From contig ONLJ01000028.1 of assembly GCA_900318605.1 (NCBI GenBank), positions 1-32,208 on the forward strand: a DNA stretch of 32,208 nucleotides, read 5' to 3'. Shown here piece after piece: positions 23,614-27,438 of this stretch. The notes beneath the pieces were generated by a model. The model saw nothing but the letters and a program-made list of their open reading frames with translations, was not told the origin of the DNA and searched no databases. Source of the DNA: an uncultured Rhodospirillaceae bacterium. GTDB lineage: Bacteria > Pseudomonadota > Alphaproteobacteria > RF32 > CAG-239. The stretch's first letter is position 1. Each line of letters starts with the position of its first letter. Both the position numbers and the translations under genes were made by a program.

Positions 23614-23931
23614 ATGGGAATAATTTCATATATCGCGAGCAAATGCAAAAACTCCGGTTTTTTGGTGCTTTTGATGTTTTTATTTTCCTATTTTTCTTAT
23701 TTTGCCATTAAAGGCGATCGCGGTTTTTTGAAATATATGTACTTACAGGAAAAGGTCGCCGAAGGCGAAAAAATGCAGGCCGATTATGATAGGCAACATT
23801 CCGAATTGGAAGCAAAAGTGAAACTTTTATCTTCAAACAGTCTTGATTTGGATTTACTTGATGAGCGTGCGCGAGCCGTCTTAAATGTTATCGGTGATGA
23901 TGAGTTTATCCTGCTTGATGAAGATAAATAA
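23614..23931 (+). CDS. FtsB/DivIC-like septum formation initiator
   Basis: A 105-residue bitopic membrane protein: short cytoplasmic N-terminus, one transmembrane helix (about 15-34), a periplasmic coiled coil (about 40-75, EKVAEGEKMQADYDRQHSEL), then a conserved-looking DLDLLDERARAVLNVIGDDE. This layout and the LDERAR segment match alphaproteobacterial FtsB, which joins FtsL and FtsQ in the divisome. AAGGAAA precedes the ATG. It lies 72 nt after lolD, not next to eno or pdhA as in many alphaproteobacteria. Confidence 0.85.
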   Translation: MGIISYIASKCKNSGFLVLLMFLFSYFSYFAIKGDRGFLKYMYLQEKVAEGEKMQADYDRQHSELEAKVKLLSSNSLDLDLLDERARAVLNVIGDDEFILLDEDK

Positions 23932-24015: not shown

Positions 24016-25014
24016 ATGGAAAAAATTGCTATTGTCGGTGCAACCAACAGTTTGGGTCGTGAAATCTTAAATATTTTCGAAGAAAATAATATTAAAGCCG
24101 AAAATGTTATGGCTGTTGATGTAAACAGTCCGCTCGGAACACAGGTTTCGTATGGGGAAGATGTTGACATGGATGTATTTAATTTGGAGGATTTTGATTT
24201 TTCTTCGGTTAAATCGGCGGTGTTTGCAACAACTGAGGAAATTGCTAAACACTATATCAAACGTGCAGTTCAAAAAAAAGTAAAAGTTATAGATTGCTCG
24301 GGAGCTTATGCGCTTGATAATGAAGTTCCTCTGATTTTGAGTGGGTTTAATTCCGAAAAAATAAAAGAAGCAAAGAATGATATTATCGCCTTGCCTTCTC
24401 CTGAGGCGGCGCAAATAATAAAAGCGTTAAGTAAGGTAACGGAAAGTTGCAAAATTACCCGCATGGTTATAAATGCTTATATGCCGGCTTCGGTTTACGG
24501 TAAAGAAGGTATGGATGAGTTATTTACTCAAACACGTAAAATTTTTATGAATGAGCCTTTGGTCGATGATGAAAAGGTATTCAAAAGGCAAATGGCTTTC
24601 AATGTTTTGCCTCAAGTCGGCGAATTTATCGGAGATGAAACAAAATTTGAATGGGCGCTTAATGTCGAAATCAAAAAAATTCTCGGAGCTGATGTTAAAG
24701 TGCATGCAAATTGTGCTTTTGTGCCGTCTTTTGTCGGTATCGGCGAATTTGTTAACGTGGAATGTTCAGATGAGGTCGATGTTGATGAAATTCGTAATAT
24801 TATGCGTGATACTAATGGTGTTATAGTGTTTGATAAGCACGTTGATTGCGGTTATGTTTCGGTAACCGATGTTCAGGGCGAAAGCGACGTTTATGTCAGC
24901 CGCTTGCGTCAAGATGTTTCGGTTGAGAACGGTTTCAGTTTCTGGTGTGTCGCCGATGATTTACGTGCCGGCATCGCTCAGAGTGCGTATGCGTTGGTTA
25001 AAGAATGGATGTAA
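24016..25014 (+). CDS. Aspartate-semialdehyde dehydrogenase homologue lacking catalytic residues (Usg-like pseudoenzyme)
   Basis: The 332 residues align along their length with aspartate-semialdehyde dehydrogenase: NAD(P)-binding start KIAIVGATNSLGREIL, VIDCSGAYA, KRQMAFNVLPQVGEF, and a C-terminal dimerisation domain. Key positions are changed. The Asd motif ANPNCSTIQ reads ALPSPEAAQ (about 125-133), so the catalytic Cys is Pro129. The catalytic Gln of YQAVSGAG is Met156 (YMPASVYG). The RVPV-x-x-GH segment reads FVPSFVGIG, losing the Arg and the His (Ile242). It therefore should not catalyse the Asd reaction and resembles E. coli Usg-type homologues. AAAGAGG precedes the ATG; the MscS gene follows after 9 nt. 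A genuine asd must exist elsewhere if the organism makes diaminopimelate. Confidence 0.82.
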   Translation: MEKIAIVGATNSLGREILNIFEENNIKAENVMAVDVNSPLGTQVSYGEDVDMDVFNLEDFDFSSVKSAVFATTEEIAKHYIKRAVQKKVKVIDCSGAYALDNEVPLILSGFNSEKIKEAKNDIIALPSPEAAQIIKALSKVTESCKITRMVINAYMPASVYGKEGMDELFTQTRKIFMNEPLVDDEKVFKRQMAFNVLPQVGEFIGDETKFEWALNVEIKKILGADVKVHANCAFVPSFVGIGEFVNVECSDEVDVDEIRNIMRDTNGVIVFDKHVDCGYVSVTDVQGESDVYVSRLRQDVSVENGFSFWCVADDLRAGIAQSAYALVKEWM

Positions 25015-25023
25015 GGATTTAAT

Positions 25024-27438
25024 ATGTCAAAGATTTTGAAATATTTTCTGATTTTATTTTTTGCTCTTTCCTTAAATTTTTCTTGCGGTTATTGCGCCGA
25101 AACAGGGCAAAATGATGTTGTTGATGAAGAAATAAGTGCCAATAACATTAGTGAAGAATTGTCTTATGATGAGGCAAAATTAAAGGTTGAGAGTATATAT
25201 CAGGCCTTGCAGGAAGAAGTATCAAAAGAACAAATAGACAGTTATGTTTCCGAGTTGAGTAAAATTGAGACAATACTGACTAAAAAACGCGATAATATCG
25301 AAAAAGATGCTCGATATCTGCAAAAACAGCTTGATGCGTTAAGCGTTGAACCTCAAGAGATTGAAGATGAAACAATAACCAAACAACGCGAAGAAATATC
25401 TCAAAACCTCGCTGCTCAAAACAGAATTATTAAAGAGGCCGATTTACTCATTATTCAAATTGAAGAGTTAACCGTAAAAATTCTTAATTTACGCAATCAA
25501 AAAATTTATGGAGATTTGATTACAAAGCAGTCCGCTTTTATAAATCCGATGGTCTTTTTCAACGGGGTTAAATCCTACGTAATTTTCTTTTGGGATATTG
25601 TAAAATCGCCGCTTGATTGGTATAGCAGTATTCCGCAGCAGCAACGCTCTTATGCGCTTTTCAGCATTATCTCGATGATTTTTATTTTAATAATTGCCTT
25701 GATTATGGCGATTATGCTCAGACGCTTCATCTTAAATAATTGGGGATATAAAGCCGATATCGAAAATCCGTCATTCAACCGTAAATTACTTGCCGCAGTG
25801 GCAGTTGCCATTGCTCGCGGACTGATATTTATGTTTTTGATAATCGGCTGTATAATTTGGATGAGCAGTACTAAAATTTTTGAAGGTACATTATTGGAAA
25901 CAGTATTGATGACTTCATCATTCTGCCTTTTGTTGGTAATAGTCGAATCAACCGTTTCAAGAGTAACATTCGCGCCGAAATTTCCGCAATGGAGGCTCTT
26001 GAATATTTCAGATGAAAAGGCTATGCGCTTTACCAAAATGATTTTCCTGTACATTTTATGTAATGCTCTTGCCTTAATCCAGATGTATATAGCTAAAAAT
26101 TCCGATTATCCGCCGTCAACGCAACACTTTTTGATTATTATATCATGTGCGGTTACGGCATTTTTCTTGATGTGGTTTACCAAAATATGTTTTGAATCTG
26201 ATAAGTCGGAACAACCGGAGCTTTCGGAAAAAGAAGATATAAATGACGATAATAAAGCCGGAGATCACAAACTTAAAATATTGGTGCTTTCTTACTTGTT
26301 CTGCACCTTAACTTTTGCCGCATCATTGTTCGGATATCCGGAACTTTCATTATTTATTTTGCGGCGCACGGTCTTCTCGCTTATTTTGTGCGGCTTATTT
26401 GAAGTTTTGCGCCGGTCGTTGTTGGAAATAATCCGCAAGTTGATTTATTATATGCCGTTTATGAGAAAATTTAAAAACAATAAAAAAACGGCAAATAAAA
26501 TAAACTTTTGGCTTAAGGTAATTATCAACCCGCTGTTGGTTCTGTTTTTGATATTTTCTTTACTTGATTTATGGGGATTGCCGGGCGATTTTATGCTGCT
26601 TGCAATAAAGAAAATTATATTCGGATTTAAAATCGGCGGAATTCAAATTTCACTTATCGCCATAATACTTGGAATTGTCGTATTCTTCGGTTCTTTGGCA
26701 ATTTCGAGAATAATTAAAAATAAGCTTGCGGCAAGTCTTCAAACTTCTGATATGGACGATGGTATCAAACATTCTCTGGTTTCCGGTGTAAGCTTTATCG
26801 GCTTTATTATTTCCATTTTGCTGGCGATAGTGTCGATGGGAATAAATCTGACCAGTCTGGCATTTATCGCCGGTGCTCTTTCGGTCGGTATCGGTTTCGG
26901 TTTGCAAGACGTAATCAAAAATTTGGTTGCCGGTATTATTATCTTGCTTGAGCGTCCGTTTAGGGTCGGCGATTGGGTAATTATGAACGGCGAGGAAGGT
27001 AAAATTAAGCAAATAAATATTCGTTCAACCGAGATGGAGACATTCAAGCGTACAAGTGTTATTATACCGAATGCAACTTTGCTTTCAAGCTCGCTTACAA
27101 ACCTGACACATGACGACAATATGGCGCGACAAACAGTTAAAGTCGGTGTATCATATAATTCCGATCCGGAAAAGGTCAAACAGATATTGCTCGATTGTGC
27201 TAAAGAGCATAAAAATATTTTGCAAAATCCGGCTCCTTATGTATTGTTTCAGGATTTCGGTTCGAGCAGTTTAGATTTTGAGTTGCGTTATTATATCCGC
27301 AATTTGTGGGAATCGTGGACATCGCCGAGTGAAGTGCGTTTTACAATATTTAAGAAATTTGCCGAAAACGGAATAGAAATTCCGTTCAATCAGTTGGTTG
27401 TTTATAACGGCGATAAGTGTGGTAAATCTGAGCAATAG
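25024..27438 (+). CDS. Large MscS-family mechanosensitive channel with periplasmic coiled-coil domain
   Basis: An 804-residue inner-membrane channel that would release solutes under hypo-osmotic stress. A signal peptide (about 1-25, ending GYCA) is followed by a periplasmic coiled-coil region (about 45-165). Then come about ten to eleven transmembrane helices (from about 209 to 625). The MscS core begins near 579 and includes the pore-lining helix FIAGALSVGIGFGLQDVIKN (Gly/Ala-rich), LLERPFRVGDWV near 640 and the C-terminal beta/alpha vestibule to residue 804. The layout resembles DUF3772/MscK-type extended channels. AAGGA precedes the ATG, 9 nt after the pseudo-Asd gene. It ends only 8 nt from the convergent efflux operon. 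Confidence 0.92.
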   Translation: MSKILKYFLILFFALSLNFSCGYCAETGQNDVVDEEISANNISEELSYDEAKLKVESIYQALQEEVSKEQIDSYVSELSKIETILTKKRDNIEKDARYLQKQLDALSVEPQEIEDETITKQREEISQNLAAQNRIIKEADLLIIQIEELTVKILNLRNQKIYGDLITKQSAFINPMVFFNGVKSYVIFFWDIVKSPLDWYSSIPQQQRSYALFSIISMIFILIIALIMAIMLRRFILNNWGYKADIENPSFNRKLLAAVAVAIARGLIFMFLIIGCIIWMSSTKIFEGTLLETVLMTSSFCLLLVIVESTVSRVTFAPKFPQWRLLNISDEKAMRFTKMIFLYILCNALALIQMYIAKNSDYPPSTQHFLIIISCAVTAFFLMWFTKICFESDKSEQPELSEKEDINDDNKAGDHKLKILVLSYLFCTLTFAASLFGYPELSLFILRRTVFSLILCGLFEVLRRSLLEIIRKLIYYMPFMRKFKNNKKTANKINFWLKVIINPLLVLFLIFSLLDLWGLPGDFMLLAIKKIIFGFKIGGIQISLIAIILGIVVFFGSLAISRIIKNKLAASLQTSDMDDGIKHSLVSGVSFIGFIISILLAIVSMGINLTSLAFIAGALSVGIGFGLQDVIKNLVAGIIILLERPFRVGDWVIMNGEEGKIKQINIRSTEMETFKRTSVIIPNATLLSSSLTNLTHDDNMARQTVKVGVSYNSDPEKVKQILLDCAKEHKNILQNPAPYVLFQDFGSSSLDFELRYYIRNLWESWTSPSEVRFTIFKKFAENGIEIPFNQLVVYNGDKCGKSEQ

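Follow-up and report, generated by a model that had tools for sequence, protein, structure and literature searches.

A pseudoenzyme of the Asd fold with a fixed channel-gene partner in gut Alphaproteobacteria

Positions 24016..25014 of the forward strand encode a 332-residue protein with the fold of aspartate-semialdehyde dehydrogenase (Asd) and, by alignment, profiles and structural model, none of the catalytic or substrate residues of that enzyme. Positions are those of the window, the whole stretch of 32,208 nucleotides that was analysed (contig ONLJ01000028.1, from an uncultured Rhodospirillaceae bacterium). The protein represents a new, misannotated family of pseudoenzymes whose gene has a fixed partner, that of a channel, and the family is real and general: its site is lost, its tree has a single origin, it is under purifying selection, LysC and DapB are absent around it, and its pairing with a gene for an MscK-like mechanosensitive channel is near-universal. 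This suggests a metabolic enzyme turned into a channel partner. The reading favoured here, at a probability of roughly one half, is that the dead Asd serves, without catalysis, as a cytosolic partner or regulator of the channel whose gene follows immediately.

The open reading frame starts with ATG, preceded by a Shine-Dalgarno-like AAAGAGG, and its product contains both Asd Pfam domains (PF01118, 62.7 bits; PF02774, 94 bits). An AlphaFold model (pLDDT 80.7, weak at residues 174-208) is matched over its full length by the fold of Vibrio cholerae AsdII (2qz9; Z 38.9, rmsd 2.4 Å, 314 residues aligned), and identity to canonical alphaproteobacterial Asd is at most 42%. Because the protein scores 253.8 bits against the NCBIfam asd equivalog NF011456 (TIGR01296), above the cut-off of 223, automated annotation would name the gene asd, the wrong call that the earlier note had anticipated. 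With no signal peptide or membrane helix apparent, the protein is predicted to be cytosolic, and it is probably still dimeric.

The active site was examined by aligning 29 members of the family with 18 canonical alphaproteobacterial Asd sequences, 17 of which entered the retention test. The former PNC motif reads P-S-P (residues 127-129, positions 24394..24402, forward strand), so that both Asn and Cys are gone; YQ has become YM (M156), RVP has become FVP (F235) and GH has become GI (I242). These four replacements, first read from the letters of the window, were borne out by the alignment. The positions of the catalytic Cys, Gln and His are now P129, M156 and I242, with the canonical residue in 0% of the 29 members. 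Substrate binding has fared no better: the Arg of SSxFR is A99, the Glu and Lys of ExxK are F211 and A214, and the Arg/Arg/Lys/Glu set as a whole (A99, F235, A214, F211) is canonical in 0-7% of the family. None of the eight catalytic and substrate residues is kept, each being canonical in 0-7% of members, whereas among the remaining 99 canonical invariants 62 are retained in most family members (Fisher p = 7e-4). In the careful alignment of 29 family and 17-18 canonical sequences, neither a Cys nor a His falls within the active site. The protein is almost certainly without Asd activity.

The loss extends to most NADP residues, in contrast with canonical Asd. In the GxxGxxG motif the outer Gly8 and Gly14 are retained and the middle Gly11 is found in only 10% of the family; elsewhere, Val13 is kept in 3% and Ser36, Ser39 and Gly73 each in 0%. 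To judge from these positions the NADP site is eroded, and the impression of a well-kept NAD(P)-binding region in the earlier note holds for the two outer glycines only. The same impression of the dimerisation region was right: mean entropy within the family is 0.70 in the dimerisation half against 1.00 in the nucleotide half, compared with 1.01 in both halves of the canonical set. The dimerisation half is the better kept, more constrained half.

The gene is not decaying and is under purifying selection. Between species of the genus dN/dS is 0.02-0.17, rising to 0.07-0.23 in the most divergent branch members; the frame is intact and free of stops in all Asd-like matches among the 153 genomes of the order; and columns of the family alignment are on average 74% identical. 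The family has 29 newly fixed positions relative to canonical Asd, several of them polar. Divergent members shed further pocket residues and retain HAN and RQD. In part of genus g32 (L120-L122) the glycine motif is gone as well and identity falls to 34-39%; here too the frame is intact and still adjoins the channel gene. The earlier proposal of selection for the fold without Asd catalysis agrees with the emptied site (0/8), the low dN/dS and the structural match to AsdII, and it is very probable that the protein has a selected, non-Asd function.

Unlike canonical asd, the Asd-like gene lacks its surrounding pathway and is linked to a channel gene. No other Semialdehyde-dh protein was found in its own genome (1.23 Mb, 85% complete) or in complete relatives, and a second one occurs in only one of the 153 genomes of the order (G144). 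The second, catalytic asd for which the earlier note proposed a search is thus missing, and the Asd-like protein is the sole Asd. It is not the sole Asd of a bacterium that makes diaminopimelate (DAP), because aspartokinase, DapB and MurE are missing. In the family no aspartokinase was detected, the sole AA-kinase match per genome being, apart from one fragment, a protein of ~240 aa that by its size is probably UMP kinase. DapB is absent from 152 of the 153 genomes, and MurE was not found in genera g1-g5; the case for pathway loss rests on these three enzymes, DapA having been looked for at locus L126 only. Going by gene content, the order, one of gut bacteria, appears no longer to make DAP, the pathway itself being missing. 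Most relatives named in genome records are Alphaproteobacteria assembled from rumen and gut metagenomes.

The one genome with DapB among these 153, G144, has a contiguous lysC-dapA-asd-dapB operon (L126:3777-7246) whose Asd carries PNC, YQ, R and H. This operon was apparently regained. The same genome retains the dead Asd 5' of its channel gene (L127), so the regained canonical enzyme did not displace it. A different combination is seen in G053 (family f23; L033/L149), which has the dead Asd/channel pair and lacks aspartokinase, but in which DapB and MurE are present; it may represent a point partway through the loss of the pathway.

In genera g1-g5 of this family neither MurD nor MurE exceeds its cut-off, whereas MurF and a MurC-like ligase are kept (L095:1837-3198, L096:3109-4467, L098:3182-5437, L102, L104, L108). 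The ligase falls below the murC cut-off and is also matched by Mpl, and a gene for an LD-carboxypeptidase-like protein adjoins it in several genomes. These bacteria may assemble their peptidoglycan out of murein peptides that they scavenge, with the MurC-like ligase acting as Mpl and followed by MurF, rather than de novo. A monomeric [FeFe] hydrogenase-like gene lies directly 5' of murF at L101:3019-4476 (TIGR04105), with similar frames at L097, L099 and L107.

In the reconstructed tree the Asd-like protein descends from alphaproteobacterial Asd with a single origin: the pseudo-Asd proteins of families f1, f2 and f23 group in a single clade (100/98), to which the canonical Asd of G034 is sister. 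The comparison with Usg drawn in the earlier note survives as an analogy and fails as a statement of descent. The Usg homologue of Pseudomonas aeruginosa (2hjs) likewise has an Asd fold with altered motifs, reading PCA, CL, QAP and GD at PNC, YQ, RVP and GH. It groups with gammaproteobacterial AsdII, and a joint clade with the family described here was rejected (AU p = 0.0036, in a test in which a single long-branched homologue represented Usg). Usg hosts also carry a true Asd; unlike them, the genome here has none. Usg, known from E. coli and Salmonella, resembles the Asd-like protein in having fixed gene partners, in its case the order pdxB-usg-truA-dedA (PMC6358828). The pdxB-usg-truA context is absent here: the next gene is that of the MscK-like channel at all 53 loci compared, and there is no fixed upstream gene.

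The downstream gene (25024..27438, forward strand, 804 aa) was assigned from Pfam and NCBIfam profiles and a fold match. Its product has a signal-like N-terminus, a helical N-terminal part, many hydrophobic helices and the MscS pore, beta and alpha-beta domains. MS_channel_2nd scores 79 bits and MS_channel_3rd 73 bits, PF00924 and PF21082 exceed their cut-offs, and the MscS beta and C-terminal domains are joined to a long N-terminal membrane part. The best fold match is E. coli MscK (7uw5, 7ux1), over most of the length and with a Foldseek E of 1.2e-22, for a model of moderate confidence whose global TM-score to EcMscK is only 0.28. By its fold the protein is predicted to be an MscK-like mechanosensitive channel; it differs from EcMscK in being shorter, in its identity of ~20% and in the pairing of its gene with an Asd-like gene.

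The two genes are tightly spaced. In the window the Asd-like stop codon ends at 25014 and the channel ATG is at 25024, the spacing of 9 nt given by the earlier note, and the channel gene has an SD-like AAGGA that overlaps the Asd-like stop region; across genus and family the spacing ranges from -1 to +21 nt. The link to the channel that had been suspected from this single locus holds throughout the order. In each of the 53 loci that have a pseudo-Asd and a next gene, this next gene is the channel gene, in the same orientation; one contig may have been counted twice (L085 and L129 look alike by length). Around the pair the neighbours are shuffled: the gene at -1 falls into 26 families (the largest in 7 of 51 loci) and that at +2 into 23. 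The FtsB/DivIC-like gene upstream (23614..23931, forward strand, by profiles), which had been read as a meaningful neighbour, is by locus comparison a neighbour in this window only and lies outside the unit. Behind the channel gene comes a member of the murD family in 18 of 46 loci (L085, L088-L090, L111-L125, L128, L129), a pointer to the cell envelope; in genera that retain MurD, its gene thus clusters with those of the dead Asd and the channel.

By coordinates, the pair lies within 264 nt in at least 125 of 138 genomes among the matches listed; in four of the other 13 the two are on the same contig with the channel partly aligned, and contig ends are also found among the rest. The pair is present in f2 (G032) and f23 (G053) as well. 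The G032 channel is placed as unlinked in the channel tree because of a contig break: its N-terminal part leaves one contig (L034) and the protein resumes at residue 147 on another. No channel match was found near canonical asd (0 of 18), the nearest pair on one contig being ~54 kb apart (G041), in a comparison of match coordinates. In G034 the MscK-like channel and asd are on different contigs. At L072 (G023) the channel gene is split into frames of 168 and 672 aa and the C-terminus of the dead Asd is altered, through either sequencing errors or a broken pair.

Pseudo-Asd is present in 138 of the 153 genomes of the order. Of the other 15, twelve have no channel match either (E 1e-30), among them five that are 91-100% complete (G008, G067, G069, G071, G098), and the remaining three (G070, G073, G116) have weaker channel matches only, apparently to the unlinked paralogue. 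Since the two genes are adjacent, their joint absence may reflect one deletion or one missing contig. That paralogue arose, in the channel tree, by duplication within f1; it is ~33-36% identical to the channel of the window and occurs in many of the same genomes with no Asd-like neighbour. Because such paralogues exist, this type of channel needs no Asd in general. Mean identity in the cytosolic alpha/beta domain is 0.66 among linked channels and 0.49 among unlinked paralogues. The extra conservation was considered as a docking signal and rejected: 18-19 of the 20 residues invariant in linked channels are common to outgroup channels, so these residues are ancestral and the difference reflects relaxation in the unlinked paralogues. 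In one g32 subclade the pseudo-Asd has fallen to 35-39% identity, while its channel stands at 37-39% against 39-42% in other members; this uneven divergence, strong in the pseudo-Asd and slight in the channel, disfavours a tight interface across the protein as a whole.

Several other accounts of the protein can be set against a partnership with the channel. It could still be an aspartate-semialdehyde dehydrogenase with a shifted active site, working in threonine/methionine or DAP synthesis, as its NF011456 score and its place as the only Asd in the genome would have it; this is very improbable given that there is no aspartokinase for the substrate and no DapB for the product, that Cys, His, Arg and Gln are gone, and that the sole genome with the pathway (G144) keeps a separate canonical Asd in it. 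Equally improbable is a functionless relic in slow decay after loss of the DAP pathway: without the pathway Asd activity is not needed, but the intact frames, low dN/dS and conserved columns are not those of a decaying gene. The newly fixed positions, with polar residues such as H230, N232, Y161 and Q299, could instead belong to a new enzyme that uses the Asd fold for another reaction. We consider this unlikely, as the old site has no conserved nucleophile, the NADP site is eroded, and the loss of pocket residues in divergent members that keep HAN and RQD reads as retention of a structural core.

A stronger competitor is a catalytically inactive Asd whose role has nothing to do with the channel, such as that of a metabolite-binding sensor or of a scaffold for another envelope protein, with translational coupling in one transcript alone keeping the pair together. 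The short spacing permits coupling for expression only, channel paralogues do without a partner, and with MurD so often behind the channel the unit may in fact be a larger cluster of peptidoglycan genes. Adjacency in every locus amid shuffled neighbours, and in three families, is however more than expression coupling usually preserves, and we regard this account as rather doubtful. The odds that the function of the Asd-like protein is tied to the channel are about even.

A partnership with the channel could have arisen as follows. In an ancestor of f1, f2 and f23, asd would have come to adjoin the channel gene, and DAP synthesis would then have been lost in the order. The catalytic and substrate sites and much of the NADP site would have eroded, with the dimerisation half staying constrained for a new role, plausibly that of tuning channel gating or assembly from the cytosol, in envelope or turgor homeostasis. 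We infer contact with the channel and an effect on gating; more tentatively, the Asd-derived dimer might dock on the cytosolic side of the MscK-like channel and set its gating or assembly, as an accessory subunit found order-wide.

Literature searches gave no account of an Asd/MscS pairing or of a comparable Asd pseudoenzyme, and we know of no MscS-type channel that has a soluble partner of its own with an enzyme as ancestor. The family shows, across an order, how a biosynthetic enzyme can lose pathway and activity alike, keep its gene and gain a fixed gene partner. Since curated models call it asd, metabolic reconstructions will credit these uncultured gut bacteria with a step of lysine, DAP and threonine synthesis that is absent from them.
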